Shown: positions 24,574 through 48,187 of the stretch, piece by piece
Layout: the number at the start of each line of letters is the position of its first letter
Position numbering within the stretch: the stretch's first letter is position 1
NCBI RefSeq assembly: GCF_017310505.1
Contig: NZ_CP065957.1
Span: forward strand, 930,001-994,000
Direction of reading: 5' to 3'
Length of the DNA: 64,000 bases
Source: Methylacidiphilum caldifontis
Lineage (GTDB): Bacteria; Verrucomicrobiota; Verrucomicrobiia; Methylacidiphilales; Methylacidiphilaceae
Notes under the pieces: generated by a model
What the model was told of the DNA's origin: nothing
What the model saw: the letters and a program-made list of their open reading frames with translations, nothing else
The model's database searches: none
Position numbers and translations under genes: made by a program

Positions 24574-25620
24574 ATGAACTACTTCCCCCAACCTGATGGT
24601 ATGGCGTGAGTTTCGCGCTTCTACGGGAGTGCCGGGTTGCCTGGAAGGCTTGCCGGTCTTACCTCCCTCCACGCCTTGGCCGGTTCCCGGCCACCAATCT
24701 GTTTCATGACCCAGCTCAAAAGCAGCTTGGCGGCATTCTCATCACCTGAACAAGATGCGCCACAAGGACAATCATGCCAGCGCTGCGACAAGGGCTTTTT
24801 CTGCAGCCTGCCGCACAGCTGTCAGCGCTGGCTGGGCTTAAGCTTGCGGCTATCCGCCTTCATCGCCCAGCCACCAGCCTCTTGCACTTTGTACCTGAGC
24901 ATCTGATGGAACATGCCGGCTGCGGCATCGAAAATGCCGCGGTTTAAGCCTCTCTTATACGCGCCGCCCAAAGCCGTCATCCCACGAATGTTCAACTGCT
25001 CCAGCCCCAAAACCGCAAAGGTGGCCACAAGCCAAGCGCTGGCCTGGTGGAGAAAATCCCGGCGCTGGTTGGTCACCTTTTCATGCAATCTGCCCAAAAG
25101 GGCGTATTCTTTCCTCAGACGGTTGGAGAGGGGAAAGCCTTTCATCTTGCCGCTGGCCTTTTTCGCCTCTTCCTCCTTGCGGCAGATGCGTTTTTGTACG
25201 GCGCCGATTCGTTCTAGAGAGCACTGCAAATGCCGGGGATTTTCGATCCGCTCCACCCCTTCCGGCGTGGCCAGGGTGGCGAACGTTTCCACACCCCAAT
25301 CCAGGCCACCGATCCGTTCCCCATGTAATCTCTTGGGCTCGCACTCCACCGTAACCGAGGCGTACCCTGTGCCGCGGCGGTGCAGAATCTCGCAGGTTTT
25401 GGGCGCGTCAACCCTCCGGGCCTTGCCTCGGATGCGATGGGGTTACAAGACCCACGGAGATGGTTGGCGCTTGCTTCCCGGTCCTGGGATAAAACACGGC
25501 AAGGTGCGCAGGGACAAAACACGCCGGACTGATCGCCCTGACGGACGATAGCGCCGCTTCACCACCACCTAAATCGCCGCCCGATTATAGGTGGAGCACT
25601 GCGGCGTAGGCTTGGGTAGA
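24574..25620 (-). mobile_element. Decayed TnpB-bearing IS element
   Basis: A GC-rich block between the lipoprotein gene and the DUF5069 gene, unlike its AT-rich neighbours. It contains a broken tnpB (minus strand) and a right end (24574-24620) that recurs alone at 5526-5580. No tnpA remnant is evident. The boundary near 25620 is a guess from the change in base composition. The tnpB sequence differs from the intact IS at 7.6-9.4 kb, so this is a second, older element type. Confidence 0.75.
24621..25440 (-). pseudogene. tnpB pseudogene
   Basis: The longest open piece (25440 to 24822) encodes RRVDAPKTCEILHRRGTGYA, then GGLDWGVETFATLATPEG with the first RuvC Asp and VLGLEQLNIRGMTALGG with the Glu. 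After KLKPSQR the frame meets TGA at 24822-24824, where the first zinc-finger Cys (TGC) is expected; it then continues in the same frame with QLCGRLQKKP, HDCPCGASC and DENAAKLLLSWV to a TAG at 24621. Upstream there is another in-frame stop near 25447 and frame changes in the N-terminal part. It cannot make a full TnpB. Confidence 0.8.
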
Positions 25621-26243: not shown

Positions 26244-27044
26244 TTAGTGCCGATCCAATTGAGCAACGACCGATTTCTGTGCTGGGCTACTGTCAGCGTT
26301 CATTTCAGCCATCTGTTTAAGCCAGTTATTATACTCTTCCACTGATTCGACCACCAGATAGCCTTTCATGGCGAAATGCCCTACGCCACAAAGCTGCCCA
26401 CATGCAATCTCGAATCGACCCGTTTTAATGGGTGTAAACCATAGAGGAATGGTTAATCCAGGAATAGCATCCCTTTGTATGCGCATCTGTATAATATAGA
26501 AATTGTGCACCACATCTTTAGATCCAATTTGTACCAAAAGAGGCTTTCCAACTGGAACATGCATTTCGTTCATGGTCACGATATCATCTTTGGAAGCTGG
26601 ATCATTTTTATCTAGCCCGATGGGATTCATAGGATCAATGAGGAAATTATCACGTCTTCCAAGTTTTCCGTCTGCACCTGGGTAATGGAAAAGCCATCCA
26701 AATTGTTGAGCTATAGCTTCCACAACAATCGCTTCCGAAACTGATGGTGGATTTAAAACCCGCTTCCCCCATAAAGGTATGGAAAAGCCAAACAGTAAAA
26801 CCATTTCGACAAAGATGACACCCCACTCCAAATGTTTAGGCCAATCCGCCTTTAATCCTTCATAATTTGCCTGAGGATGCTTCTTTTTCGAAAATTTAAA
26901 GAGTGAGTACACGAAAAAAGAGGACCAAATTACAAAAAGGATGAGCATAAACCAAAGTATCAGTTCCAGAAACTGATCAACCTGGTGCCCATGTTCAGCG
27001 GCATTAGGAGAAATACCTGTAAGTTCGAGCAAAAGTGCAATCAT
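26244..27044 (-). CDS. coxB: Cytochrome c oxidase subunit II (CuA)
   Basis: Subunit II accepts electrons from cytochrome c at its binuclear CuA centre and passes them to subunit I. Two N-terminal membrane helices precede a periplasmic cupredoxin domain. The CuA ligands are visible: His in VVHNFYIIQMR, and CGQLCGVGHFAM with both Cys, His and Met. The aromatic segment FGWLFHYPGADGKLG matches the electron-entry tryptophan region. It has no fused cytochrome c domain, so a separate cytochrome must deliver electrons. It is distal in the oxidase cluster, after small membrane proteins. Confidence 0.94.
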   Translation of the reverse strand: MIALLLELTGISPNAAEHGHQVDQFLELILWFMLILFVIWSSFFVYSLFKFSKKKHPQANYEGLKADWPKHLEWGVIFVEMVLLFGFSIPLWGKRVLNPPSVSEAIVVEAIAQQFGWLFHYPGADGKLGRRDNFLIDPMNPIGLDKNDPASKDDIVTMNEMHVPVGKPLLVQIGSKDVVHNFYIIQMRIQRDAIPGLTIPLWFTPIKTGRFEIACGQLCGVGHFAMKGYLVVESVEEYNNWLKQMAEMNADSSPAQKSVVAQLDRH

Positions 27045-27065
27045 CGTTCTCTTTCCTTGTTTATC

Positions 27066-27347
27066 TTATCCACGTTCAACATTCAGCTCAGCATTCGACT
27101 CTTCAGTTTTGCAGTCTTGAAGACAACTATTTTCACTATTCAAGGCAGCTTCTTTTTTGCTCATTTTTACAAAAAAAGAAATGAAAAGCCCGAAAACTAA
27201 ACCTAATAAAGCCAGTAAAAAAAGGACAGCTGGCAACATTCCTCTAGTGGCATTAGAATTTGGTACTGAGCAAATACCACAAGAGAAGGCTTTATCAACG
27301 CTCAATGGAAGCAACGATAATAGACAACTCACTAAGCCGATTTTCAT
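27066..27347 (-). CDS. Small exported or membrane protein in oxidase cluster
   Basis: Not recognised. The 93 residues carry a signal-like N-terminus (MKIGLVSCLLSLLPLSVDKAF), a short loop with two cysteines (SCGICSVPN), one membrane helix (about 37-60) and a charged tail with two further cysteines (SCLQDCK). The Cys pair could bind metal or form a disulfide, but this is speculation. It lies between coxB and another small membrane protein in the same direction, so it likely belongs to the oxidase operon. Confidence 0.6.
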   Translation of the reverse strand: MKIGLVSCLLSLLPLSVDKAFSCGICSVPNSNATRGMLPAVLFLLALLGLVFGLFISFFVKMSKKEAALNSENSCLQDCKTEESNAELNVERG

Positions 27348-27395
27348 ATCCTTCTCCTTGTTTCTTTTTTCCCAATCCCTCTCTCCCCTTTACTT

Positions 27396-27728
27396 TTATC
27401 TCTCATTTTTCCAAAGCTTTTCTTCCTCACTCTCTTCTTCCTGCAAATAGAGGAACTCCGCATAATCAGGAAGTGGCTTTTTCGTTTTCCTGACGAGGTA
27501 ATAAATAAAACTACCCACGGCCAGCCATATGATGAGTACAAAGAAAGCCAAGAAAAATCCTACCCAATCCTCTTTCTGAATTTGCTCGGTAGATCCAGTC
27601 ATGGAAAAAATTCTTTGATCATGACTCCAAGATTGAATGAGAAAAAGAAAAAGGATGATAGCCATGACCACCAGGCCATATCTCATTTTTCTTTTAGGTT
27701 TTGGATCAAGCTCGAGCATCTTCATCAT
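27396..27728 (-). CDS. Small two-helix membrane protein in oxidase cluster
   Basis: Not recognised by family. The 110 residues have a basic N-terminus, a helix at about 17-34, a periplasmic loop, a second helix at about 51-76, and a highly acidic C-terminal tail (EEESEEEK). Topology predicts both ends in the cytoplasm. It is one base downstream of the next small membrane gene (27730-27936), so it is very probably cotranscribed. A role in oxidase assembly or as an accessory subunit is inference. Confidence 0.65.
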   Translation of the reverse strand: MMKMLELDPKPKRKMRYGLVVMAIILFLFLIQSWSHDQRIFSMTGSTEQIQKEDWVGFFLAFFVLIIWLAVGSFIYYLVRKTKKPLPDYAEFLYLQEEESEEEKLWKNER

Positions 27729-27729
27729 A

Positions 27730-27936
27730 TCAATAAATTTTCAACTTTTTCATTTTGAGCACAAACCATACTCCATAAATAACGGCTAAGATCCCCAAAA
27801 GAAAAGAACCTACCCCTAAGCCAATATAAAGAAGCTCTTGACTGCTAAAATAGCTATAGATAGCCCATGCCCCAAAAGTCAGGAAAAGTAAGATGGCCAG
27901 TGTTATAAAAACAAGGTGAAATTGTCGCAGAGACAT
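27730..27936 (-). CDS. Small two-helix membrane protein in oxidase cluster
   Basis: The ATG at 27936 (MSLRQFHLVFITLAIL) has a good ribosome site (AAAAGGAGAAAAAT) and is preferred over an upstream start at 27969 that overlaps the preceding gene. The product has 68 residues with two membrane helices and a basic end (KMKKLKIY). Similar tiny proteins often sit in oxidase operons; I do not know a precise family. Confidence 0.6.
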   Translation of the reverse strand: MSLRQFHLVFITLAILLFLTFGAWAIYSYFSSQELLYIGLGVGSFLLGILAVIYGVWFVLKMKKLKIY

Positions 27937-27949
27937 ATTTTTCTCCTTT

Positions 27950-28246
27950 TTATTTTCCAATAGAGTCAAAATAAGAAGCCACTAATAATAAAAATAAAGC
28001 CAATACAAAGAGAACCGCAAGACCTATAAGGTGATGGATTGTCTTTTTTTCCCAAAAAATGTGCATGAGAATACCTAAAGCTAAAAGAGCCTGGACGCCA
28101 GCAATTACAAGTCCTGCTGCTATGTTCCCTCCTCCCAAGTGAAGATAGGAAACAGCAACATTAACTATTGCCAGGACAACCAAAAACCCAAAAACGATAA
28201 AATAGGATTTAATCCGCTTTTTTTCCTCATGTATTTCTTCGCTCAT
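27950..28246 (-). CDS. Cytochrome c oxidase subunit IV-like (CoxD/CtaF type)
   Basis: A 98-residue, three-helix membrane protein with the pattern of prokaryotic subunit IV: basic N-terminus, KSYFIVFGFLVVLAIVNVAV, a middle helix with ALLALGILMHIFWEKK, and a last helix LAVLFVLALFLLLVASYF. The HIFWEKK after helix 2 is close to family members (MH..E). It follows coxC by about 50 bases. The subunit helps stabilise the oxidase but has no cofactor. Confidence 0.8.
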   Translation of the reverse strand: MSEEIHEEKKRIKSYFIVFGFLVVLAIVNVAVSYLHLGGGNIAAGLVIAGVQALLALGILMHIFWEKKTIHHLIGLAVLFVLALFLLLVASYFDSIGK

Positions 28247-28295
28247 TGACTATAGTCTCCTCTATTCCTAATAACTATTTAATCTTTCTTTATCC

Positions 28296-29087
28296 CTAAA
28301 AGAGGTAAAGAGTAGGAAAAAGAAAGATCCACACCAGATCAACAAAATGCCAAAAAAGGCCTGCAACTTCCACTCTGTTTGCTAAATGTTCGGGATTTCT
28401 TTTATAAAGGGAAGCACCTGGACCCCAAAAATAACCTAAAACCAATAGTCCTCCAAGAATGTGGAGAGCATGAATTCCGGTCATCGTGAAATAGGTAGCC
28501 AAATAGGTATTGTATTTTGGTACAAAATTCGACCACCAACGGATTTCATTCTTGGGAATCTCAAGAACTTTTTCTTCAGCCTCGGGTTTAGAAAAAATGG
28601 ACTTAAGTTGATAAACAAAATCCCCCGCATTCTCTGGATCTGGTTTGATTTTTAAAACGTCCGAGCGCATTGCTTCTTCTTCGCTCATAGCTAGATGCCC
28701 CGTGATTTCCTGGCCATTTTTAAGAATTACCCCATAGTGGTGAAATTTATCCTTGTATTCTACAGACTTAACGCTAAGAAACAAAACACCACAAAAAAGA
28801 GTGATTCCCAGCCACTGCCTATATTTAGCAAAATCTCGCATTTTCAGCGAGCTCCAGGCCAACACCATAGTAATGCTAGAACTTATGAGTACCATGGTAT
28901 TAAAAAGCCCCATCGGTACATTCAATATATGATGTGGCCAATGCGATGCTCCAAGTCTTAAGAAAATATAGGCTGAAAAAAGTCCACCAAAAAGCATGAC
29001 CTCGGAAGCCAAAAACAACCATATTCCTACTTTTGCATTATAAAGACCGGTATCAGGCCTTGCTGTAACTGTATAAGGAATCTCCAT
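28296..29087 (-). CDS. coxC: Cytochrome c oxidase subunit III with an internal insertion
   Basis: Subunit III supports oxygen entry and stability of the oxidase. The N-terminal half has KVGIWLFLASEVMLFGGLFSAY, and the C-terminal half FTMTGIHALHILGGLLVLGY and FWHFVDLVWIFLFPTLYL, all family hallmarks. Between the fourth and fifth helices an extra, mostly hydrophilic stretch of about 60-70 residues is present (about 120-185), including GVILKNGQEITGHL and many Glu and Lys. Typical CoxC proteins have only a short loop there. It lies between coxA and the subunit IV gene. Confidence 0.93.
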   Translation of the reverse strand: MEIPYTVTARPDTGLYNAKVGIWLFLASEVMLFGGLFSAYIFLRLGASHWPHHILNVPMGLFNTMVLISSSITMVLAWSSLKMRDFAKYRQWLGITLFCGVLFLSVKSVEYKDKFHHYGVILKNGQEITGHLAMSEEEAMRSDVLKIKPDPENAGDFVYQLKSIFSKPEAEEKVLEIPKNEIRWWSNFVPKYNTYLATYFTMTGIHALHILGGLLVLGYFWGPGASLYKRNPEHLANRVEVAGLFWHFVDLVWIFLFPTLYLF

Positions 29088-29129
29088 TACTGAACCCTCT
29101 TGTTTTTCTTCTATATATCGTTTTTGTTT

Positions 29130-30977
29130 TTATGAAGGAATCTGGGATAAATTTCCTTCTTTTCTTAATCTTTCTTCCGGTTCCCATTGCGGTAAATAAT
29201 CCTGTTTATATCCCGGGACACTATATTCATAAGGATCCCGGTAAACCGCTACGGGATGGAGAAAATTGCCATGTCCAGGAGGTGTAGGCGTTGCCCATTC
29301 AAGGGTAGTCGCTTGCCAAGGATTATCGTCGGTTACCTTTTTCCCAGCCCATAAGCTCCAGAAGAAATTGATGATAAAGGGGATCTGGGCAATGGCTAAT
29401 GCCCAAGCAGAGACACTCATGACCTGGTTTAACCAAAGCACATTCTGCGCCATCTGCCAACCCGCTCCACCATCATACCATCTTCGATGAACACCGGCAA
29501 AACCTTGAACAAGCATGGGAAAGAATATGCCATTAAAGAAAATGACCGTTGGCCAAAAATGCAGTTTGCCTAAAAACTCATTCATGTACCGACCTGTAGC
29601 TTTAGGAAACCAGTAATAAATGCCTGCAAAAAGGGCAAGCAGAGAGGCAGGAGCCATCATGTAATGGAAATGGCCGATAACATAATAGGTATCATGGAGC
29701 ACGACGTCTGAAGCCGTCCATCCCAGAGGCAATCCTGTCAGTCCTCCTATGCCGAACATCGGAAGCCATGCCAAGGCAAAAAGCATTGGGACATTAAATC
29801 GTATCGATGCTCCCCACAGGGAAAGCAGTAATACCGTTCCCAATAAAACGGAAGGAATAGAAATAATCGTCGTAAAAATTTGGAAGAAGGAAGTAACTGC
29901 TTGGCCCATCCCTGTCATATACATATGGTGGGCCCAGACGATCATCGATAGAAAACCAATAGCCAAAAGCGAATAAACAAAAACCTTATAACTCCAAAGA
30001 GGTTTGCGGGTGTTGTTAGCAAAAATCTCTCCAACAATACCCATGGTGGGTAGAATCTGGACATAGACTTCAGGATGCCCCAGGAACCAGAAAAGATGCT
30101 GCCAAAGAATGGAAGACCCTCCTCCACTTATATCCGCATGTTTGCCGTTTACAATCAACCCCTCAGGAGAAAAGAAACTCGTTCCAAAAAGCCGATCCAT
30201 AAGCTGCATGATTGCAGCCGATTCAAGGGGAGGAAAAGCCAAAAGCAACAAAAAAGCCGTAACCAGTTCACTCCAGACAAAAACAGGCAATCTCATCCAG
30301 CTTAATCCCTTGGTTCTGAGCTGAATGATGGTAGTAATAATATTCACTGATCCCAGCAAACTTCCCGTAATATTGAAAGCCATGCCTATAAGCCATAGCG
30401 TCTGTCCATTAAAAAGGGGATGAAAACCAGGTCCCATATCTGCAAAATCAGCCAATGGTGTATAAGAAGTCCAACCTGACTTTGCCGCTCCCCCAGGAAC
30501 AAAAAAGCTCACCATCATGATAACTACCCCAACAAAAAACAGCCAAAAACTAGCCATATTCAGTCGAGGGAAAGCCATGTCAGGTGCACCAATTTGCAGG
30601 GGAACAACAAAATTACCAAACCCAGCAAAAAGAGCTGGAACCAGGGCCATGAAAATCATCATCGTTCCATGCATTGCTCCAAAAGAATTATAAAGCTGTG
30701 GGGTCATAACCCCCCCCGGAGCCATTGATGAACCAAGAAGTTTTTCAAGAATAGGTCCAAAAACAGGAATAGGCTTTCCAGGGAAAGAAAGCTGCCAGCG
30801 CATCAATACCATCAAGAAAAAAGCAAAAAGAGCCACAAAAAGTGAAGTGACCATGTATTGATAGCCGATCATCTTATGATCGGTGGAAAAAACGTACTTT
30901 CTTATCCAAGGAATTTCTTCGTGTTTCTCATGAAGGCCATGTGCAGCATGTGAAGTCATCGACATTTCAGAGTCCAT
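29130..30977 (-). CDS. coxA: Cytochrome c oxidase subunit I (aa3 type)
   Basis: Subunit I holds low-spin heme a and the heme a3-CuB site where O2 is reduced and protons are pumped. The 615-residue protein has 12 or more helices. Motifs: low-spin His in FGAMHGTMMIFM, CuB His and proton-channel Glu in GHPEVYVQILP, CuB pair in WAHHMYMTGM, and heme ligands in DTYYVIGHFHYMM. The GHPEVY motif with Glu fits the A1 subfamily. The N-terminus before the first helix is His-rich (about residues 1-25), which is mildly unusual. It leads coxA-coxC-subunit IV-small genes-coxB. Confidence 0.97.
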   Translation of the reverse strand: MDSEMSMTSHAAHGLHEKHEEIPWIRKYVFSTDHKMIGYQYMVTSLFVALFAFFLMVLMRWQLSFPGKPIPVFGPILEKLLGSSMAPGGVMTPQLYNSFGAMHGTMMIFMALVPALFAGFGNFVVPLQIGAPDMAFPRLNMASFWLFFVGVVIMMVSFFVPGGAAKSGWTSYTPLADFADMGPGFHPLFNGQTLWLIGMAFNITGSLLGSVNIITTIIQLRTKGLSWMRLPVFVWSELVTAFLLLLAFPPLESAAIMQLMDRLFGTSFFSPEGLIVNGKHADISGGGSSILWQHLFWFLGHPEVYVQILPTMGIVGEIFANNTRKPLWSYKVFVYSLLAIGFLSMIVWAHHMYMTGMGQAVTSFFQIFTTIISIPSVLLGTVLLLSLWGASIRFNVPMLFALAWLPMFGIGGLTGLPLGWTASDVVLHDTYYVIGHFHYMMAPASLLALFAGIYYWFPKATGRYMNEFLGKLHFWPTVIFFNGIFFPMLVQGFAGVHRRWYDGGAGWQMAQNVLWLNQVMSVSAWALAIAQIPFIINFFWSLWAGKKVTDDNPWQATTLEWATPTPPGHGNFLHPVAVYRDPYEYSVPGYKQDYLPQWEPEERLRKEGNLSQIPS

Positions 30978-31111: not shown

Positions 31112-31711
31112 TTATTCTCCAAGGTGGGAAAGCTCATCCACAGTCCATGAGCCTTCTTTTTTGCCGTACTTTTCTCTAAGCTCTTTGATCTCAGCTTCAT
31201 CCACCTTACCGGCATGATTACCCCAAGAGTTTCGAATATAAGTCATGATCGCAGCCAGCTTTTGATCGGTTAAGGCCGTTTTCCACCCAGGCATCACACC
31301 ATTGTAGCTTGATCCATTAATTTTCAACTCTCCAGAAAGTCCATTTAATAAAATGGCCCCCAACCTCGCCTTATTCCCTACGACATACTCAGAGTTTGCA
31401 AGGGGAGGATATTGTCCAGTCATGCCCAAGCCATTCTGCTGGTGACAGGCCGAACACATCGCCTGATATTGGTCCTTACCTAAGGCCATCGTATCCATTT
31501 TAGCTTCGACAACACTTTTTTTAACCTCTTCCTTGGATTTCGGCTTAGGAATATATCCCCAAAAGAGGCTTCGAGAGTCGAAGATGTTATTCTTCCATCC
31601 GCCTGTTTCGAATAGCAAAATATATAGAGCCAAGAGCACAACCAAAAAAGAGAAAAGCAAAAACCACCTGGGGATTTTATCTTTTGTCCTTTCTTCTAAA
31701 TCCTTCTCCAT
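31112..31711 (-). CDS. Membrane-anchored monoheme cytochrome c
   Basis: One N-terminal membrane helix (about residues 16-33) is followed by a periplasmic cytochrome c domain with heme motif CSACHQQNG and likely axial Met in YNGVMPGWKTALTD. It resembles a one-heme CcoP-like protein or a class I cytochrome c electron carrier. It follows the CcoO-like gene by 41 bases and precedes coxA, so it may carry electrons from ACIII or the CcoN/O-like module to the CuA site of CoxB. Confidence 0.85.
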   Translation of the reverse strand: MEKDLEERTKDKIPRWFLLFSFLVVLLALYILLFETGGWKNNIFDSRSLFWGYIPKPKSKEEVKKSVVEAKMDTMALGKDQYQAMCSACHQQNGLGMTGQYPPLANSEYVVGNKARLGAILLNGLSGELKINGSSYNGVMPGWKTALTDQKLAAIMTYIRNSWGNHAGKVDEAEIKELREKYGKKEGSWTVDELSHLGE

Positions 31712-31752: not shown

Positions 31753-32373
31753 TCAGGGTTTTTTTGGTTGAGTCTCAACCGGATAGGATCTATCCAAAGA
31801 GATCAGATAGGCAACTAAAGCCATTGCTTCGGGTGAGGGCAAAATTTGTATATCAGGAGGTACGCCTCGGGTCAATTCCTGGGGTAATGCTATTGGATTC
31901 CTTTTACCTTCGGCTCTTACTTTCCGAAAAAGATATCGATAGGGAGGCATGATCGTTCCAGGAAATACTTTTGCTGGATCATAAAGAAGGAGATAAAACC
32001 AATGGGGATCTTTTCTTCTTGTCCCTATATTAGAGAGGTCAGAGCCCATTCTCACTATGCCCAGAAAAGGGTTGGGTTCATGATAATAATCTAAGGGTAA
32101 AGTTCGACGGTTACCCCATCCCCTTGCGATGTCTGAACCCATATTGGCAGGTCTAACCACTTGGGTATGGCAACCTGCACAGCCATTAGCTCCATAGACT
32201 CTTTGTCCAGTTTTGATAAGCCCAAAGTCAGCAGGTGGGCTTTCATCAGCTGTTGGGGGCATATCCAGGACCCTAGCTGGAATAATGACATAAAGCCACC
32301 ATCCAAATATAAAGCAGCTTAAAATCCCTAATATCCAAAGAAATTGTTTAAACATCATCTTCAACTCAATCAT
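31753..32373 (-). CDS. CcoO/FixO-like membrane monoheme cytochrome c
   Basis: This protein resembles subunit II of cbb3 oxidases. After one N-terminal helix come VYGANGCAGCHTQVVRP with the heme motif, GSDIARGWGNRRT, and the family pattern LYDPAKVFPGTIMPPYRYLF with an axial Met. CcoO passes electrons to CcoN in normal cbb3 oxidases. Here its partner gene just upstream encodes a CcoN-like protein lacking most cofactor ligands, so it may act instead as an electron wire to another oxidase. An alternative start is the ATG at 32358. Confidence 0.88.
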   Translation of the reverse strand: MIELKMMFKQFLWILGILSCFIFGWWLYVIIPARVLDMPPTADESPPADFGLIKTGQRVYGANGCAGCHTQVVRPANMGSDIARGWGNRRTLPLDYYHEPNPFLGIVRMGSDLSNIGTRRKDPHWFYLLLYDPAKVFPGTIMPPYRYLFRKVRAEGKRNPIALPQELTRGVPPDIQILPSPEAMALVAYLISLDRSYPVETQPKKP

Positions 32374-33834
32374 TCATCGGTTATCTAGGCTCTGAGACAA
32401 ATTATTGATTTCTCCTTTTCGCTCTTCAACTTCCATTGGTAAAATCGTCATCAGCAACAACAGAAAACAGTAGGTCAACTGGGAGAAAAGGATGAGTGTA
32501 GCAGACATCCCCGCTCCTCTAAGATAAGGCAATACCGATTCAATAACCTCCGTAATGGGTAATTGCACATCTTGGAGTTCAAAACTCTGAACAATCCCTC
32601 CCAGGCATAGGAATATAAAAAGAAAAGTCATCCCATATATATTTGCCCAAAAAGTGATTTTCAAAAGGATTTCCGAGACCCAAGGTTTTTTATAAAAACA
32701 ACAAAAAAGATCATGAGCAGTTGCTAGTAATCCAAAAGAATAAAATCCATAGATAAAAAGCACAAGAAAAGCTATTTCTACAAAGCTAAAATGGGTAAAG
32801 CGACTCACCAAGGGAAATGAAAGAACTCCATCACCACAAAGCGCTATTAAAAAGCAATAGAGGGCGATCAGATAATATCTCGACACGATAGAAACCGGGC
32901 TAGCCTTAAAAGTTTCTTTAAACCGCTGCCACAAATCAATACCAATGGCTAGCGCTCCAAGGATTGCCAAAAATCTCGAAGCGATTCCTAGTCCTACAAT
33001 CCAAAGAGGAAAAGGACCACCAACTAGATGTGATGCACTCGAAAAATTTGAAAAGAAAAAAAACGTTATAAGCCCTCCCCATGAAAGAATTGAGGGTTTT
33101 TGTAGACCCCGCATCCTTTCAATGTAGTCATAGAGCATCGCCAGTCCTATCGGAGCTAGCCAGAGGTGCAGAAAGCCTTCATTAAACCACCATTCCATGC
33201 TCGCAAAAGCAACCCCGCGAATTACTTCCCAATGGAAAAAGACAAACAAGCTCCCTATGGCCCAGGGAAACCAGAGCAAAGATAAAAGGAGGTAGCTGGT
33301 TGAAATTTTTTTTGAAAACAACCCTAAACTTAACAGCTCCCTGACCAAACCATAAACCATCAAGATGTAATTCAAAAGAAGCAGAAACAAAACAAAATCT
33401 GGCCAACCCGCCCATGATAGGGAAGGAATCTCCCCAATGAGGACAGCCATCATCCCAATAAAAAGGGATATGTTCCAGAAAATTGCAGAAGAAAGAAAAT
33501 AGCCGCTTTCCTTGAAAACTCCGCTTCGATTGCTACCCACAAGATAAAGGGCAAAAGCCAACCCTCCGTTCATCCCCCAGCCATAGGAAAATACGAGAAA
33601 TGAAGCCAACTCGATGCGTCCAAAAGTCAACCATCCCCACGACCCAAGAAGGTTAGGAATCATAATTTTCCCAGCTCCAAGCAGAGCAAAACCTAGAGAG
33701 ACCAAAAGCCAGAAAAAAGCGGCCATGAGCAGGAAGATGACAGGTCTCATGAAAGAGCCATCCAGGGATATTTCTCCTTTACCGGCGGTCTGCAAGCCTG
33801 TTGGTTTTAAAGAATTGATTGTCTGTTTACTCAT
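32374..33834 (-). CDS. Degenerate CcoN-like heme-copper oxidase subunit I paralogue
   Basis: The 486-residue protein has 12 or so membrane helices, and short blocks align by eye with CcoN. In helix II the block GR..(6)..YGWGMNG has Ser78 where CcoN has the low-spin heme His. In WWFNEG, Glu219 replaces a CuB His. In SASHLVGG only His269 of the CuB pair is kept. In RFTHFSF, His348 matches the high-spin heme ligand, but the other low-spin ligand is Ser350. It cannot be a normal oxidase. It directly abuts the CcoO-like gene (TGA/ATG adjacent), implying a complex with it. Confidence 0.72.
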   Translation of the reverse strand: MSKQTINSLKPTGLQTAGKGEISLDGSFMRPVIFLLMAAFFWLLVSLGFALLGAGKIMIPNLLGSWGWLTFGRIELASFLVFSYGWGMNGGLAFALYLVGSNRSGVFKESGYFLSSAIFWNISLFIGMMAVLIGEIPSLSWAGWPDFVLFLLLLNYILMVYGLVRELLSLGLFSKKISTSYLLLSLLWFPWAIGSLFVFFHWEVIRGVAFASMEWWFNEGFLHLWLAPIGLAMLYDYIERMRGLQKPSILSWGGLITFFFFSNFSSASHLVGGPFPLWIVGLGIASRFLAILGALAIGIDLWQRFKETFKASPVSIVSRYYLIALYCFLIALCGDGVLSFPLVSRFTHFSFVEIAFLVLFIYGFYSFGLLATAHDLFCCFYKKPWVSEILLKITFWANIYGMTFLFIFLCLGGIVQSFELQDVQLPITEVIESVLPYLRGAGMSATLILFSQLTYCFLLLLMTILPMEVEERKGEINNLSQSLDNR

Positions 33835-33846
33835 CGCACTGGCTTT

Positions 33847-34212
33847 CTATTTTGATTCAGAGGGCCGTTGTATGCCGGGCAAATAAACCCCAGAGGCTTT
33901 GGATGTTTTCGACTTGTATTCCTTAACAATATCTTCCATAGCTTCATCTATGGGGATGTGAACAATTTTCTTTTCCTTATCAATCCACCCATATGAAGAA
34001 AGTTTTTTCTTTTCTTCGATCTGCTCTCCCAAACGCATTTGCCTTATATTTTCTGCTACCTTCTCATCTTCTGCTTTTCTTTTATAAAGGATTGACCAAG
34101 CATAAAACCCGGAAAGCAAAAACCCGCATAAAAATATAAGGAGAATGGCTCCATCCCTAAAGAAAGAGAAAGGGGCTAAAACTGTTTTTTGATGCTCTTC
34201 GCTCAAGTTCAT
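33847..34212 (-). CDS. Small single-helix protein of respiratory cluster
   Basis: The 121 residues have one helix (about 23-43) and a charged C-terminal domain with the conserved-looking segment YGWIDKEKKIVHIPIDEAME. I recall similar segments in small proteins next to ACIII and oxidase genes in other phyla, but I cannot name the family. It leads the CcoN-like/CcoO-like genes with a 12-base gap. It may be an assembly or scaffold factor. Its own upstream 265 bases separate it from the nos operon. Confidence 0.6.
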   Translation of the reverse strand: MNLSEEHQKTVLAPFSFFRDGAILLIFLCGFLLSGFYAWSILYKRKAEDEKVAENIRQMRLGEQIEEKKKLSSYGWIDKEKKIVHIPIDEAMEDIVKEYKSKTSKASGVYLPGIQRPSESK

Positions 34213-34477: not shown

Positions 34478-34840
34478 CTACGAAGATCCTGGTGGCTTTG
34501 TAGTTCTGAGGTTGAGAATCCACTCAACCATCCTTTCTGCCTCCTCCTTTTCTACCCTTTGAGGTGGCATACATTCCCATTTTGTCTTCCACTTTCCACA
34601 AGAACCTTCCAATACACTCTTTACAAGCACTTCTTTTTTTTCGTATCTCTGAGCTATATCGTAAAAGGAAGGTCCGACGAGAAATCTTTTCGTATCATGA
34701 CAATCAGTGCATCCCCTAAGCCTGAAAAGCTCTTTTGCACTAATCTCCAATCTTGGCTTTTCCTCTACACTTGTTTTTTCGCATGATGGGACATACAAAA
34801 GAGCAAATAATAGTAAAAATGATAAAAATAGTAAATACAT
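34478..34840 (-). CDS. Small lipoprotein-like cytochrome c, end of nos operon
   Basis: The 120-residue protein has a signal segment ending LYVPSC that looks like a lipobox, one heme site CTDCH, and a candidate axial Met in WECMPPQ. It begins one base after the nosY stop, so it is cotranscribed with the nos genes. Small cytochromes c at the ends of clade II nos clusters are thought to donate electrons to NosZ. A second cytochrome begins the same operon. Confidence 0.8.
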   Translation of the reverse strand: MYLLFLSFLLLFALLYVPSCEKTSVEEKPRLEISAKELFRLRGCTDCHDTKRFLVGPSFYDIAQRYEKKEVLVKSVLEGSCGKWKTKWECMPPQRVEKEEAERMVEWILNLRTTKPPGSS

Positions 34841-34841
34841 A

Positions 34842-35612
34842 TTAGAAATTTTTCCTTTTAAAGATTTTAAGATTCAAAAAAGAAATGATGAATGTGTAAA
34901 AAAGAGATAAAATAAAGGGTAAAAACCAGAATTCTTTGATATAGGAACTTTTTATCCACCTTCCCAAAAAGCCCATGAGCTCGTAAAGCCCCACCTCCAT
35001 AAGAAGAGTGAGTCTCAAAAAGTCTACCGGATTTATAAGGGTAAGGCTTATCAGCAGCATTTCCGCTGGATATTCAGAGAGAGCTATTACAAGATAAAGA
35101 AGGAGTGCATCGTAAAATATACAGAAGAAGAGCCACAGAAAAAGGGAAAAACCAAGTCCCTTTATACTATCTTCTATAAATAGGAAAGAGAAAATACCAA
35201 GGCTTACAAATAGGGGGACAAGAGAAAGATTGAGAAGCACGCACTTTAAAAAGCTTTGACTGAATCCTGCTAAGTAGTAGAAAGGAAGGAGGGAACCTAA
35301 AAGGTAACTAAAGCATAAGGAGAGGCTAATGCTTATACTAATTGAGAACAGAAGGATAGATCTTTTGACGGGTTGAGAAAGGAGAAATTCAAGGAAGTTT
35401 TTATTGCCGTAAAGAAATGTGGTAGTAAGAAGCAAAGAAAATAAGGACAAGGAGAGGGAAGAGAGATTACCATAGCTAACCACTGCCTTTTCTACACTTC
35501 TTCCAAACTCTAGTAAAATGTAAGTTACCAAAGCGTAGAAAATAAAGGTTGCAAAGGTCCATCGACTCTTTAAAAGATCATAAAATACATATTTTATGAG
35601 CTTAACAAGCAA
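34842..35612 (-). CDS. nosY: NosY, ABC transporter permease for NosZ maturation
   Basis: A six-helix membrane protein of 256 residues, the membrane partner of the NosF ATPase. NosDFY delivers sulfur or handles copper for CuZ assembly in NosZ. The N-terminus MLVKLIKYVFYDLLKSRW fits the family. The start is TTG at 35612, overlapping nosF by 19 bases. Sequence is hydrophobic and less conserved, so the name rests partly on position after nosD and nosF. Confidence 0.85.
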   Translation of the reverse strand: MLVKLIKYVFYDLLKSRWTFATFIFYALVTYILLEFGRSVEKAVVSYGNLSSLSLSLFSLLLTTTFLYGNKNFLEFLLSQPVKRSILLFSISISISLSLCFSYLLGSLLPFYYLAGFSQSFLKCVLLNLSLVPLFVSLGIFSFLFIEDSIKGLGFSLFLWLFFCIFYDALLLYLVIALSEYPAEMLLISLTLINPVDFLRLTLLMEVGLYELMGFLGRWIKSSYIKEFWFLPFILSLFYTFIISFLNLKIFKRKNF

Positions 35613-36295
35613 ATCACAGCCTCCTCAAGCCTTACCTTACCAGTTTTTTTCTTAAGATCCACAAGGCTCCCTTCAAAGATAACTTTGCCATCGGTTAGAA
35701 AAACCACCTCATCTGCTATCTCTTCCACTTCGTTCATTATGTGAGATATGTAAATCACTGTTTTATCCCTTTTTTTCTCTTCAAGGATAAAGCCCTTAAG
35801 TCTATATGCGGAGATGGGATCAATCCCCACCAATGGCTCATCCAATATAAGCAAAGGTGTATCAAATGCCAAAGCTACGAGAGCACCTACCTTTTGCCTT
35901 GTACCCCCTGAAAGGCTTGAAAACTTCTTTTCCAATTCTTTGCCAAGGTTTAAAAGGTCAAGAAGTTCCTTAAGTCTTATAGCCTTCTGATCCCTTATGT
36001 CCTCTATCATGGAGATTATTTCTCTCACTTTAAGGTTTTCAGGAAACTCAGGAATCTGTGGCATGTATCCTATTATTTTTTTATATCTAGCATCTCTATA
36101 TATATCTCTGTTATTTATAACTACCTTTCCCTTATCAGGAATGACAAGGCCAAGGAGGATTTTAATCAGAGTGGTTTTCCCTGAACCGTTAGGTCCGAGG
36201 ATGGCTATGGTTTTTTTTTCTTTAAGCTCAAAGTTGAGATCTTCAAAGAGCTTCCTTCTCCCAAAAGACTTATAAATTCTCTCAAACCTTATCAC
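35594..36295 (-). CDS. nosF: NosF, ABC transporter ATPase for NosZ maturation
   Basis: The 233 residues hold a full ABC ATPase: Walker A GPNGSGKTT, Q-loop in MPQIPEFPENL, signature LSGGTRQK, Walker B LLILDEP and the H-loop ISH. The LSGGTRQK and downstream DEPLVGIDPIS are typical of NosF. GTG start at 36295 overlaps the nosD stop by 4 bases. All Arg codons I read in two segments are AGA or AGG, and most Ile codons ATA, unlike neighbouring respiratory genes. Confidence 0.93.
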   Translation of the reverse strand: MIRFERIYKSFGRRKLFEDLNFELKEKKTIAILGPNGSGKTTLIKILLGLVIPDKGKVVINNRDIYRDARYKKIIGYMPQIPEFPENLKVREIISMIEDIRDQKAIRLKELLDLLNLGKELEKKFSSLSGGTRQKVGALVALAFDTPLLILDEPLVGIDPISAYRLKGFILEEKKRDKTVIYISHIMNEVEEIADEVVFLTDGKVIFEGSLVDLKKKTGKVRLEEAVICLLSS

Positions 36296-37482
36296 GGTCT
36301 CCTCATCAGGGGTTTTTTATCTAAAAGAGCTTGAGGATTAAGTAAAGGGATATACTTCTCCATAGAATCCATTATTCGGGCAAAGAAGCTCTCGTAAAGA
36401 AGTAGAGAGAGGGGATATCGCTCGAAGAGAACTGCCATAAAGGATACTGGTCTATAGGGCAAGTCTCCATAACCGTCCCTATCAAGATCATAACCTTCAT
36501 ACTTATCGTAGTAATTCCCCTCAAAGGTATTTGTAAAATAAGATAGAGTGTTGGTTGAAACATCAAATGCATTGCCTACTAAGGAGTTTTTAGTAAAAAA
36601 GTTATCCTCACTGTTAGCATATATCCTCACTGCCCAACCGTTGTTCTCAAAAAGATTTTCTTCAAATCTAGTCCTGTTGCATCCATCTAGGTAGACACCG
36701 TGAGTATTATTAACAAACCTATTTTTGTAAAGGAAGTTGTCGGATATATCTTTCATTAGGAGTCCGTAATTTGCCTCTCCTTCGTTCTTTTCGAAGGTGT
36801 TTTCCTCCATGTTTATATTTTTTGAATACATGACCGCTACACCTGCCCCGTTTTTGTAAAAGTAATTTCTCCTATAAGTATTATTGTTGGAAAACATAAA
36901 ATGTAATCCGTATCTTAGGTTGTATTCGCTTCTATTGCCCTCTATGAGGCTGTCCTTTACGAACTCTAGATATATGCCATCCCTTTGCCCTTTAATATAG
37001 TTATCTTTTATTTTAAGTCTTTCGGAATTCCAGGCATGAATACCATTACCAGAGGAACCTTCAGATTTTGCAAAACCCACCACCGTATTGCTTTCAATCT
37101 GACAATTGCTTACCTTTTCAAGATGCAAGGCAAAGAAGTTATTGAAAAATTTGTTATTTTTTATAACGCAGTTTTTTGAGTTTATCACTTTAAGCCCCGC
37201 TATATCTTCGCTGTAAGACATACCCGAGTTCTTTATCACAAAACCCTCAATTTCTACATCATCTGCCTTTACTGTTATCACCTGCTCTCTTCCTTCTCCA
37301 TCTATAATTGGCTGTCCCTTCCCTAAAAGCTTCACACTTTTGGTGATCACAATACCACCATTGTATGCTCCATAGTTTACCACAACTGTGTCTCCAACCC
37401 TTGCTTTTTCTATGGCACTCTTTATGTCCTTGAACTCACAGTTTGAGCATACAATTAGAACAGACATGACGAGACTTAGCAT
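36292..37482 (-). CDS. nosD: NosD, periplasmic copper/sulfur-related maturation factor
   Basis: A 396-residue right-handed beta-helix protein with repeated short parallel-beta turns (N-rich steps such as VINSKNCVIKNNKFFNN). A short hydrophobic start (LSLVMSVLIVC) serves as signal. NosD works with NosF and NosY in building the tetranuclear CuZ site. ATG at 37482 begins one base after the nosL stop. Length matches the family. Confidence 0.93.
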   Translation of the reverse strand: MLSLVMSVLIVCSNCEFKDIKSAIEKARVGDTVVVNYGAYNGGIVITKSVKLLGKGQPIIDGEGREQVITVKADDVEIEGFVIKNSGMSYSEDIAGLKVINSKNCVIKNNKFFNNFFALHLEKVSNCQIESNTVVGFAKSEGSSGNGIHAWNSERLKIKDNYIKGQRDGIYLEFVKDSLIEGNRSEYNLRYGLHFMFSNNNTYRRNYFYKNGAGVAVMYSKNINMEENTFEKNEGEANYGLLMKDISDNFLYKNRFVNNTHGVYLDGCNRTRFEENLFENNGWAVRIYANSEDNFFTKNSLVGNAFDVSTNTLSYFTNTFEGNYYDKYEGYDLDRDGYGDLPYRPVSFMAVLFERYPLSLLLYESFFARIMDSMEKYIPLLNPQALLDKKPLMRRP

Positions 37483-37483
37483 A

Positions 37484-37936
37484 TCAGTTGGAAGACTTGT
37501 ATTCTACTTTTATAAGATCCCTTAGGGCCTGCCAATCAAGTATTTTTCCCTCTTTACCCAGAAGAATCTTTATAGCATCCTCTTTGCTTTTGTAGGCTGA
37601 CAGATTCATGCCCATGGGACTTCTTATCTGAGGACTTCTCACATAAGAAGCAAGCTCGGCCGGAATGAATTCATCAGTATTTAAAAAGTTTATCACATAA
37701 GCTCTTTTTATGTCTTCCTCATTATGGTTGTAATATCCTACCATGCATTCTACAGAATCAAACTTATAAACCTTACCCTTCTTCGTTATTACTTCAGTAG
37801 CAAATCTCTTATCAGCTATAACCATTTTACAATATTCACATATATCCTCACCAGGCCTTATGAGTTCTGGTTTTTCCGATGTGCAGGAAAAAAAGAGGAG
37901 GAGGAAACTCCAAAGCACTCGGATTAAAGGTTTCAT
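37484..37936 (-). CDS. nosL: NosL, copper chaperone lipoprotein
   Basis: NosL is an outer- or inner-membrane lipoprotein that carries Cu(I) to NosZ. The 150 residues have a lipobox in LLFFSC, the family motif DICEYCKMVIADKRFA and a second region DSVECMVGYY. Met-rich SPMGMNLSAY follows. Its ATG overlaps the upstream gene's stop (ATGA). Sampled codons are AGA/AGG and ATA as in the other nos genes. Confidence 0.94.
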   Translation of the reverse strand: MKPLIRVLWSFLLLFFSCTSEKPELIRPGEDICEYCKMVIADKRFATEVITKKGKVYKFDSVECMVGYYNHNEEDIKRAYVINFLNTDEFIPAELASYVRSPQIRSPMGMNLSAYKSKEDAIKILLGKEGKILDWQALRDLIKVEYKSSN

Positions 37937-38535
37937 GCAAGCTTCATCATCATCTTTGTGGGCTTTGAGTGTATAAGGCCTAAGATAATCGCAACAACGC
38001 CAAGCAATAGAGAAACTATAGCTATATAGCCACCAATATCAGGGAAGGAGCTTGCAGTCATGTTCAACAGATGTTTGGTCCCTATTAGTGGGGGTTGATA
38101 GGCAAGCCCTGGTACCTTTATAGGTGCGTTAGGATCAAGGTTGTGTCCATAGTCATACTCCCATCTGTAAAAGTCTGCAATGCCTATAAGGGCAATAGCT
38201 ATAAATGTTCCGACCCAAGCGAAAAGAAGTACCCTTTTACCAAGAAGTGCCGAGATAAGCCCAAAAGCTATAAGAAAACCAATTATGAAGGGAAGTATTT
38301 TTAATTCAGGTACAGCATTAGGGTCTATGTGTTTCATCCCAATGTAGTGATTCAAAAGATTTATGTTGAAAAGGTCAAACTCTGTACCTCCGGTTATTGT
38401 ATTTAGCCATATAAACATCCTAATTCCTTCAGGATACTGAGGGGCTAGAAGCTGGATTTTCCAAAAGGGGAAAAAGTAAGAAAGGATAAGCAATAGAGAG
38501 GCAAGGGTTATAATTGCCCTTGATATTATATTCAT
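37933..38535 (-). CDS. Membrane protein of clade II nos clusters
   Basis: A 200-residue protein with about four to five membrane segments. It starts with a helix, then has a periplasmic part containing FPFWKIQLLAPQYPEGIRMF and LLNHYIGMKHIDPNAVPE with His and Met residues. I recall homologues between nosZ and nosL in nos clusters of Bacteroidetes and Aquificota; their role is unknown, perhaps metal handling or electron transfer to NosZ. It begins 14 bases after nosZ and overlaps nosL by 4. Confidence 0.78.
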   Translation of the reverse strand: MNIISRAIITLASLLLILSYFFPFWKIQLLAPQYPEGIRMFIWLNTITGGTEFDLFNINLLNHYIGMKHIDPNAVPELKILPFIIGFLIAFGLISALLGKRVLLFAWVGTFIAIALIGIADFYRWEYDYGHNLDPNAPIKVPGLAYQPPLIGTKHLLNMTASSFPDIGGYIAIVSLLLGVVAIILGLIHSKPTKMMMKLA

Positions 38536-38549
38536 TTCTCATCGCCTCT

Positions 38550-40532
38550 TTACTTTTGTGTTATAGGGGTACCTGTGTAATATTTTAAGGGAACATTAGA
38601 GCCTTCAGGTGATACCCTTACATAACCCTGCATTTCTTGGTGTAGTGCAGAACAAAAGTCGGTGCAATAAAATGCATGAATGCCAGGAGCTTTAGGCCTC
38701 CACACAAGAGTCTTAGTCTCTCCCGGCATAACCAGTATTTGTGCATTATCTGAACCCCTGATAGCAAAGCCGTGAGGTATATCCCAGTCCTGTTCAAGGT
38801 TGGTCAGGTGAAAGTAAACTGTGTCTCCTACCATTATACCCTCAATGTTGTCGGGAAAAAAGTGGGATCGGATCATGGTCATACATACATGAACCTCGTT
38901 ACCCTTTCTCTCAACCTTTGCATCTTTTTCCGCCTTCACTGCATAGGGATGCTCGTTCTCAGCAAGAGGATATATTTTTATAACGTTTTTCATCAGTAGA
39001 TCTGCTGGTATAGCTTGAGCATAGTGGGGCTCTCCTATAGTTGGGAAATCTAGGAGAAGCTGCATCTTATCGCCTGTTATATCATAAAGTTGCGCTGACT
39101 GGAAAAGCTCAGGACCTGTGGGAAGGTATCTATCCTTTGTAATCTTGTTCATAGCAAGGAGATACTTACCCCAAGGTTTTGTCGAATCACCTCCGGGTAT
39201 CATCAGGTGTCCTATCGAATAGTAAGTGGGTATCCTATCAACCACTTTACCACTTTTGTAGTCGTATTTGACCACTTCTGAAGAGACAAAGCAAGAGGTA
39301 TAAGCAAAACCTTTTCCATCAAATTCCGTGTGAAGGGGGCCAAGTCCAGGCTTTTGAATTTCACAATGGAGTACAGCATCGTACTTCAGAACAGGTATAC
39401 CATCCACCTCCTTCTCAAAAGCTTTCTGTTCTATAGCTTTTAGCATCTTAGAGAAGGAATGTATAGGTATAACAGTGGCAAGCTTCCCATTTCCAACAAT
39501 GTATTCGCCATCGGGAGACACATCAACACCGTGAGGAGACTTGGGAGTAGGGAGGTAATACACAACACCGGGACATTCCTTGGGATTAATTACCTTCACT
39601 GATTTTTTAACTTCGGAGAAGGCCATGTGTTTTTTCTCATCCCAGTAGTTGTGATAGTAAACCGTGGGCATTTCCTGATACTTGCCTTGTGCAATATACT
39701 CTTCTGCCTTTTTCCAGTTGACAGCTGCTATATAATCCTTGTCATTCCTTGAGGCATTTATTTCAAGAAGGGTGTAAGCTTGCTCCGTGTTATAACAGGT
39801 AAAGAAAGCCCAACCATAAGATGGTCCTTTTCCACAATGCGCCAAGTCATAGTCAAATCCTGGCATAAGTATTTGGAAAGCCACATCCATCTTACCCGGC
39901 TCGTCAGCTTTTATAAAGGATAATGTTCCTTTAAAATTCTCAGCGTAGGAGCTTATGGGTACATCCTTCTGAGGGATAGGAATAGAAAAGCGTGTTGCAG
40001 CAGTAATATATTTTGAATCAGGCGTTATAAAGGGAGACGCATGGTTTCCTGCAGTGTTAGGAATCTCTAGGATTTCCTTTGTCACAAAGGAGAAGAGATC
40101 AATCCTAGCTATCCTCGGCGTGTTGTTGGCGTTTATAAAAAGCCATCTGCCATTAGGAACTCCGTCAGTCTGAGAAAGCTCAGTATGATGACTGTCATCC
40201 CACGGAATAAAGCCGTGTGAGGTCATAAGCATAGGTTTTGTCTCAGGTGTGTAGCCATATCCCGACTCTGGATCCTGAGCGAAAACCTTTATTACATTTA
40301 TGAGCCTTCCAGAAGGAAGTCCATAAACGGAAACTTGCCCACTGAAGCCACCTGACAAAAAGGCGTAAAACTCATCGTATTTACCCGGAGGAACGTAGAC
40401 CTTAGAGGCTACATCGGTAGTCCCCACCTCCGTCCTCATAGTTTCCTTCTTTTGCTGGCATCCCACCAATAAAACACCCACCAGGAGGCCCAAAAGCCCT
40501 CCAATCAACAGCTTCTTTTTCTTTCCTAACAT
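38550..40532 (-). CDS. nosZ: Nitrous oxide reductase, clade II type, lipoprotein
   Basis: NosZ reduces N2O to N2 in the periplasm with CuA and CuZ centres. The 660-residue protein begins with a Sec lipoprotein signal (lipobox LLVGC, Cys25), not a twin-arginine signal, which fits clade II. CuZ histidines H115, H116 and H164 keep the spacing of Paracoccus NosZ (1 and 48), and SPHGVD, GPLHTEF and GEPHYAQ supply more. The C-terminal CuA site CTDFCSALHQEM (C623, C627, H631, M634) is complete. Start ATG at 40532 has a strong AAAGGAGGT ribosome site. It follows a cytochrome c gene by 30 bases. Confidence 0.96.
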   Translation of the reverse strand: MLGKKKKLLIGGLLGLLVGVLLVGCQQKKETMRTEVGTTDVASKVYVPPGKYDEFYAFLSGGFSGQVSVYGLPSGRLINVIKVFAQDPESGYGYTPETKPMLMTSHGFIPWDDSHHTELSQTDGVPNGRWLFINANNTPRIARIDLFSFVTKEILEIPNTAGNHASPFITPDSKYITAATRFSIPIPQKDVPISSYAENFKGTLSFIKADEPGKMDVAFQILMPGFDYDLAHCGKGPSYGWAFFTCYNTEQAYTLLEINASRNDKDYIAAVNWKKAEEYIAQGKYQEMPTVYYHNYWDEKKHMAFSEVKKSVKVINPKECPGVVYYLPTPKSPHGVDVSPDGEYIVGNGKLATVIPIHSFSKMLKAIEQKAFEKEVDGIPVLKYDAVLHCEIQKPGLGPLHTEFDGKGFAYTSCFVSSEVVKYDYKSGKVVDRIPTYYSIGHLMIPGGDSTKPWGKYLLAMNKITKDRYLPTGPELFQSAQLYDITGDKMQLLLDFPTIGEPHYAQAIPADLLMKNVIKIYPLAENEHPYAVKAEKDAKVERKGNEVHVCMTMIRSHFFPDNIEGIMVGDTVYFHLTNLEQDWDIPHGFAIRGSDNAQILVMPGETKTLVWRPKAPGIHAFYCTDFCSALHQEMQGYVRVSPEGSNVPLKYYTGTPITQK

Positions 40533-40562
40533 GATGCCACCTCCTTTAAATTAAAATCCCAA

Positions 40563-41018
40563 TTACTTTTCATCAACGCTCCTTAGATATTCAAGTATTG
40601 CTCTTGCATCACCCTGAGAGACATTCTGAAAGGCCATCTGAGTAAGATACTCGGAAAGTAGTTGGCTTGCTATAGGATCCTTTTGTTCCATCTCGGCGGG
40701 ATTTAGTATCATGTTCATGATCCATTCGGGCTTCCTTCTCTTTGTAACACCTTTGAGAGGAGGTCCCACATACCTCTCCTCAAGCTTGTGACATGAAGCA
40801 CATTTAGTATCAAAAATTTCTTTGCCTTTTTTGACAAGGCTTTGGTCTATGGAGCCTAGCTTAACCTCTTTGATAGGACCAATACCCTTATCACTTACTG
40901 CCTTCTCATTTGGCGGATCAGGCAAGGGAGAAGCGGGTGAAGGAATATCCGCAGACTTTGCTCGATACGAAAAGATCAAAAGACCTGAAAGAGAAAAGAG
41001 CAGAACCGTTTTCACCAC
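40563..41018 (-). CDS. Cytochrome c, first gene of the nos operon
   Basis: A small exported cytochrome with signal helix, a Pro-rich linker and one heme site CASCHKLEERYVGPPLKG, followed by an axial Met candidate in MILNPAEM. It likely donates electrons to NosZ, taking them from ACIII encoded just upstream. GTG at 41018 with AAGGAA before it is preferred over TTG at 41045, because a promoter with -10 at 41047-41052 would leave too little leader for the longer form. Confidence 0.82.
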   Translation of the reverse strand: MVKTVLLFSLSGLLIFSYRAKSADIPSPASPLPDPPNEKAVSDKGIGPIKEVKLGSIDQSLVKKGKEIFDTKCASCHKLEERYVGPPLKGVTKRRKPEWIMNMILNPAEMEQKDPIASQLLSEYLTQMAFQNVSQGDARAILEYLRSVDEK

Positions 41019-41046
41019 ATATTTCCTTGTAATATCATTTAACAAA

Positions 41047-42956: not shown

Positions 42957-42970
42957 CGTGTTTTAATCCT

Positions 42971-48130: not shown

Positions 48131-48187
48131 GATTAGCTCCCCTAAGGTGCATGACTCAATAAGGTCATTATTTTAAATTACATGTCA

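Follow-up and report, generated by a model that had tools for sequence, protein, structure and literature searches.

The locus and its genes

The window, by which we mean the whole 64,000-nucleotide stretch of DNA analysed, carries at 32374-33834 a single uninterrupted ORF of 486 codons on the minus strand, in keeping with a first-pass annotation that had called the gene open and full length (486 residues). The same annotation placed the gene, identified as a CcoN-like oxidase subunit, in an operon with a CcoO-like cytochrome, and the CcoO-like gene (31753-32373) does abut it. The neighbourhood reads, in the order of transcription, actA-actB-actC-actD-actE-actF, a nos cluster, h, the CcoN-like gene, the CcoO-like gene, a cytochrome c gene, coxA-coxC-coxD, two small genes and coxB. 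Its features are as follows.

41140-48844, minus strand: alternative complex III (ACIII), actA-F; ActE/F/C lie upstream in nearly all relatives
48188-48844, minus strand: ActA, with five CXXCH motifs
44999-48130, minus strand: ActB
43560-45002, minus strand: ActC
42971-43615, minus strand: ActD
42339-42956, minus strand: ActE
41140-42342, minus strand: ActF
34478-41045, minus strand: nos cluster (cytochrome c, NosY, NosF, NosD, NosL, NosB, clade-II NosZ, cytochrome c)
38550-40532, minus strand: NosZ, clade II (TIGR04246, 957 bits)
33847-34212, minus strand: small membrane protein h, found 5' of CcoN in most loci (by synteny)
32374-33834, minus strand: CcoN-like pseudo-oxidase, 486 aa (by ORF and translation, profile homology to CcoN, and ligand positions)
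31753-32373, minus strand: CcoO-like membrane-anchored monoheme cytochrome c (CAGCH, with MPPYRY downstream; Pfam FixO, E 7e-16; CXXCH kept in all 64 degenerate loci)
31112-31711, minus strand: third gene of the N-O-P module, a monoheme cytochrome c with a membrane anchor (CSACH; by Pfam Cytochrom_C and synteny)
26244-30977, minus strand: aa3 oxidase genes coxA, coxC, coxD, small proteins and coxB
29130-30977, minus strand: coxA, with every ligand motif present

The clade-II (Sec-type) nos cluster is placed inside the ACIII-ccoNOP-cox operon, precisely between actF and h. The same arrangement of nos genes within the ACIII cluster has been reported for M. caldifontis IT6 (PMC11102522). It is absent from the other Methylacidiphilum genomes compared, in which actF and h adjoin without the insert; the encoded proteins are 70-72% identical between the window genome and congeneric genomes. 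At 24822-25349 the window also holds a C-terminal TnpB fragment of the IS607/IS605 type, apparently a remnant.

Homology to CcoN and the ligand positions

Taken alone, the window protein gives nothing or chance matches in Pfam, NCBIfam and the PDB, and so the CcoN assignment made at first pass was not an obvious one. A profile built from Methylacidiphilaceae sequences only aligns with canonical CcoN in HHalign with a probability of 98% (E 1.5e-13, 379 columns), and the control membrane families ActC, ActF, CoxA and CoxC reach 1% or less in the same comparison. CcoN blocks had initially been aligned over four helices; by profile, the homology spans nearly the whole length. When the profile is built from 44 relatives, it reaches solved CcoN (cbb3) chains in the PDB at E 1e-63 to 1e-69, and COX1 and ccoN models match 43 of these 44, the sole exception being the window protein itself. 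No homology was detected to the NrfD-like/ActC-ActF family (hhalign probability 0.2-0.8%). Membership of the nitric oxide reductases (NorB) does not fit, the heme ligands being absent from the CcoN-like protein, and the NorB-like protein of the window genome is a separate gene (L096). An AlphaFold2 model of the window protein from a two-sequence input had a pLDDT of 41 and no usable fold. On the evidence of these profiles, the window gene is a real homologue, though a divergent one, of the cbb3 (C-family) oxidase subunit I, CcoN.

The register of the ligands was taken from two independent alignments, MAFFT and HHalign, which agree. In the window protein the six metal-ligand positions are occupied by S78, E219, S268, H269, F356 and V358, and the position of the catalytic tyrosine by S262. 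They lie, by alignment, at the following coordinates.

33601-33603, minus strand: S78, helix-II low-spin heme b His position
33178-33180, minus strand: E219, first CuB His position
33028-33051, minus strand: S262 (catalytic Tyr position), S268 and H269 (CuB His pair)
32761-32769, minus strand: F356 (heme b3 proximal His position) and V358 (helix-X heme b His position)

In P. stutzeri CcoN numbering, we take these residues to correspond to H60 (S78), H207 (E219), Y251 (S262), H257/H258 (S268/H269), H345 (F356) and H347 (V358). Only H269 is left of the six metal ligands: the heme b His pair (S78, V358), the heme b3 His (F356) and the tyrosine (S262) are all replaced, and one of the three CuB His is present (E219, S268, H269). 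The CuB positions named in the first-pass annotation (Glu219, Ser268 and His269) are confirmed by the alignment, as is Ser78 for the low-spin heme. Its second low-spin position, Ser350, has to be moved to V358. H348 and S350 are eight residues out of register, and H269 alone remains, not both His348 and His269 as had been stated. Along helix X, THFSFVEIAFLVLFIYGF pairs with SHYTDWTIAHVHTGALGW, which puts H348 on a conserved non-ligand His (presumably H337 in P. stutzeri numbering). The claim that most heme and copper ligands are lost is true, and the loss is more complete than claimed.

There are five His in the whole protein (201, 223, 269, 348 and 374) and six are needed, so that no alignment can yield a full set of His ligands; no set of ligands that are shifted but present was found. 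The ligand string is identical across all five Methylacidiphilum genomes examined. The loss is thus fixed among these orthologues, and a sequencing error is excluded. The ligand loss strongly supports the earlier suggestion that the protein is unable to reduce O2 in the usual way, and at the sequence level the window protein is predicted no longer to reduce O2.

Intact and degenerate copies across the class

A survey of the class with the family profile, covering 385 sampled genomes at a cut-off of E 1e-15, gave matches in 312 of them, some being ordinary CcoN paralogues. Ligands and tyrosine were scored at 120 loci taken with their flanks, one of which (L170) is a fragment. All six His and the Tyr (HHYHHHH) are kept at 55 loci, and 65, the fragment included, are degenerate. 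Two states prevail, a near-intact intermediate (HRYHHHH) being seen in just one of the 65. At L185 the first CuB His is changed to Arg and the rest are kept, which could mark an early stage in the loss or be a mistake in the assembly. The operon order of the family is fixed (actBCDEF-h-CcoN-CcoO-cyt c, sometimes then cox). The window copy belongs to this ACIII-linked family by its profile match and by its gene order, actF-(h)-CcoN-CcoO-cyt c; unlike the family order, however, it has the nos cluster separating actF from h.

The intact copies have 128 conserved columns, 41 of which are lost in the degenerate copies (the most divergent of these being aligned less surely than the Methylacidiphilaceae copies, to which the window belongs), including seven of the seven active-site columns (p 2e-4). 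The remaining conserved columns keep a median identity of 72% in the degenerate copies. Preferentially lost columns also include the positions of CcoN R57, E122 and Y317 (F328 in the window protein). We assign them to the heme-propionate/Ca site and to the proton channel, that of the C family in the case of Y317.

The low-spin heme b His pair survives in some dead clades (HNSQRYH), hence not every member is metal-free. The clade formed by L037, L194-L196, L198, L200 and L232 has lost the binuclear centre (HN.QRY), but most of its members retain the two low-spin heme b His; this is possibly a heme-b-only relay. A separate intact clade with six His and the Tyr (L047-L050, L061-L063) comes from another class of the phylum and has a CcoO-like neighbour, with no recognised ACIII cluster nearby.

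The number of losses depends on the tree. An ActC+ActF (ACIII) tree, built without CcoN sequences, needs 17 state changes, well-supported branches forcing 14 of these, and 19 losses when no regain is allowed. On the CcoO+cyt c tree there are 10 changes, at least 7 of them forced. A simple-model CcoN tree needs 3 and unites almost every dead copy in a single clade, but it carries warnings that long branches meet. We set this single dead clade aside as probable long-branch attraction, because a mixture-model CcoN tree (40 rows) breaks the dead group up and nests dead copies within intact clades (dead L065/L214/L055 fall inside the intact L186/L190/L185 clade), because the nearest intact relatives by identity concur with the ACIII tree for several dead clades, and because three ACIII-like constrained trees are not rejected under the mixture model and fit slightly better than the free trees. 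From the ACIII, CcoO+cyt c and mixture-model CcoN trees it follows that ligand loss was recurrent, with an exact number that is uncertain and tree-dependent (3 with the simple CcoN model, 14-19 with ACIII).

Retention of the subunit and its possible role

CcoN, CcoO and the cytochrome c (N, O and P) behave as one module, whose parts are kept together, absent together, or made as one polypeptide. Leaving out L170, all 64 degenerate loci have Act genes upstream and CcoO and cytochrome c downstream, and CXXCH is present in every CcoO and cytochrome c found at these loci. In genome G008 (L241), from another genus in the window's family, CcoN, CcoO and cytochrome c are all missing, and h is followed directly by cox. 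In genus g6, which from its family placement would be Akkermansia-like, the gene after actF encodes one protein of ~770 residues that joins a ligand-free CcoN-like domain to CcoO and cytochrome c (L245, L246; G021, G024 and others). This fused protein is found in eight other genomes at 70-73% identity, plus one divergent copy. Its first domain matches the family profile with a probability of 92% (E 5e-7, ~290 columns; controls negative) and gives no direct profile match to canonical CcoN. Four genomes carrying it have no COX1-domain protein, and the job of the module there must therefore differ from feeding a heme-copper oxidase.

Downstream cox genes accompany 36 of 62 dead loci versus 10 of 51 intact ones. 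These raw counts favour the idea that aa3 arrived and so cbb3 died, but independent pairs on the tree give it no support (2.9 pairs the same way, 0.6 the other way and 9.5 without difference; median p 0.5). That the arrival of aa3 caused the death of cbb3 is possible. About 40% of the dead copies lack downstream cox genes.

The joint absence of N, O and P, their natural fusion and the COX1-free genomes suggest that the dead subunit most likely anchors or positions the outlet cytochromes of ACIII. The window protein, subunit I of an ACIII-linked C-family oxidase, has lost the catalytic Tyr and the heme b, heme b3 and CuB positions. In the model that we propose, it retains its fold and goes on pairing with the CcoO-like protein and cytochrome c. 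The pseudo-oxidase would hold both cytochromes in the membrane next to ACIII, and menaquinol electrons would exit ACIII through CcoO/cyt c to whichever acceptor the organism has available. In the window organism this would be the aa3 oxidase and plausibly NosZ as well, and in the Akkermansia-like genomes an acceptor that is not a heme-copper oxidase. Retention as a membrane platform that anchors the CcoO-like protein and cytochrome c beside ACIII is, in our judgment, probable; a physical complex, this electron route and scaffolding as the selected function are what we infer. The chances seem evenly balanced for a wider statement, that the ACIII of Verrucomicrobiae repeatedly made its attached C-family oxidase a metal-free hub to interchangeable acceptors (aa3, N2O reductase, or no heme-copper oxidase), a heme-copper oxidase fold working without metals. 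A structural dock for the CcoO-like and other cytochromes had been put forward at first pass, and it is the best-supported idea, N-O-P being one module and fused in the Akkermansia-like genus. Its placement between ACIII and the aa3 oxidase, however, is not general, given the dead copies without cox, the non-significant link and the clade without a heme-copper oxidase.

The alternatives differ in whether the gene is dying, still catalytic, or doing other work. A pseudogene in decay and not yet lost would account for the fast amino-acid divergence once the ligands are gone, when CcoN diverges faster than its neighbours (between the congeners L065 and L186, 48% identity for CcoN versus 94% for ActC). 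Against it, dead CcoN in close pairs has a dN/dS of 0.09-0.33, usually comparable in magnitude to that of ActC, ActF and CcoO in the pair, and in the window genus 0.13-0.16, somewhat higher than the 0.04-0.11 of its neighbours. These values contradict decay. Degenerate copies are moreover full length, with reading frames that stay long and free of stops in many genera, and one clade has CcoN fused to CcoO, so that we hold decay to be highly improbable. The faster divergence is as expected for a protein released from catalysis yet still bound to its fold, and purifying selection on dead CcoN fits any non-catalytic role and does not single out docking. It is hardly credible that the alignment is wrong and that a working cbb3 oxidase has its ligands shifted but present: the literature annotates the gene as a cbb3 oxidase (PMC8498564, PMC6688271, PMC11102522), but five His cannot fill six ligand positions and two independent alignments share the register.

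Other residues might instead let the protein bind a metal or one heme, and it could then relay electrons or offer a small-molecule (NO/O2) site. The window family does conserve H201, H348, H269 at the former CuB site and an acidic residue (E/D) at 219, and the clade elsewhere with both low-spin heme b His (HNSQRYH) points the same way. However, the window copy has kept no heme b or b3 His and one CuB His out of three, and H269 gives way to R, K or D in other dead clades, so that a conserved new site would not be family-wide; we consider this reading unlikely. Without a docking role, the protein could be a sensor, an ion or proton channel, or a factor that assembles the complex, and the kept membrane fold would be in line with this. 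We doubt it in turn, as the CcoN Tyr317 position is among the columns preferentially lost, no sensor domain has been added, and the fusion to two cytochromes found in nature suggests that the partnership is structural. The transport or sensor protein offered at first pass as the other option likewise finds no support in the analysis and seems unlikely. The anchoring of cytochromes beside ACIII is the reading that we prefer.

The ACIII-adjacent gene of verrucomicrobial methanotrophs has been described as a cbb3 (C-type) oxidase (PMC8498564, PMC6688271, PMC11102522, PMC10205796). This cbb3 is listed as one of three oxidases in Methylacidiphilum (PMC8498564, PMC10205796), a cbb3-type oxidase has been used to help explain the high O2 affinity of the genus (PMC6688271), and a C-type oxidase next to ACIII is reported only from verrucomicrobial methanotrophs and Opitutaceae (PMC8498564). 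The other COX1 proteins of the window genome are two of the A family, two of the B family and one NorB, and a CcoN model finds just the two A-family genes. Since there is no other CcoN in this genome, the published "cbb3" can only be the degenerate gene. Its ligand loss would remove the "cbb3-type high-affinity oxidase" from the Methylacidiphilum respiratory chain, and annotation of a "cbb3 oxidase" by gene presence is unsafe across the class. Our search of the open-access literature found no report of a heme-copper oxidase subunit I lacking its metals or ligands. Because loss has recurred and the neighbouring partners are kept, a natural active-to-dead series is available for testing the non-catalytic role of subunit I.

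Compared with CcoN of the cbb3-type (C-family) oxidases, the window protein shares full-length homology, and a CcoO homologue and a c-type cytochrome adjoin it, but five of the six metal ligands and the catalytic Tyr are gone. Relative to the canonical cbb3 operon, the CcoO-like gene is present, whereas the third gene encodes a monoheme cytochrome and the operon has no diheme CcoP. CydB of cytochrome bd is a heme-free partner subunit, a membrane homologue of the catalytic subunit without the catalytic hemes; its fold is unrelated, and here it is the catalytic subunit itself that has been disarmed, repeatedly. As in the ACIII-aa3 supercomplex of Flavobacterium johnsoniae, the ACIII genes of the window adjoin an aa3 oxidase. 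That supercomplex passes electrons without a soluble carrier, according to the passage of PMC8498564 that cites Sun et al. 2018; no CcoN or CcoO part is mentioned in that passage, whereas the window adds a dead C-family subunit and two cytochromes. Finally, the ACIII-linked C-type oxidases of Opitutaceae and other Verrucomicrobiae have the same actBCDEF-h-CcoN-CcoO-cyt c operon and family profile, but their copies keep HHYHHHH and are predicted to be active, the window copy being one of many dead branches.
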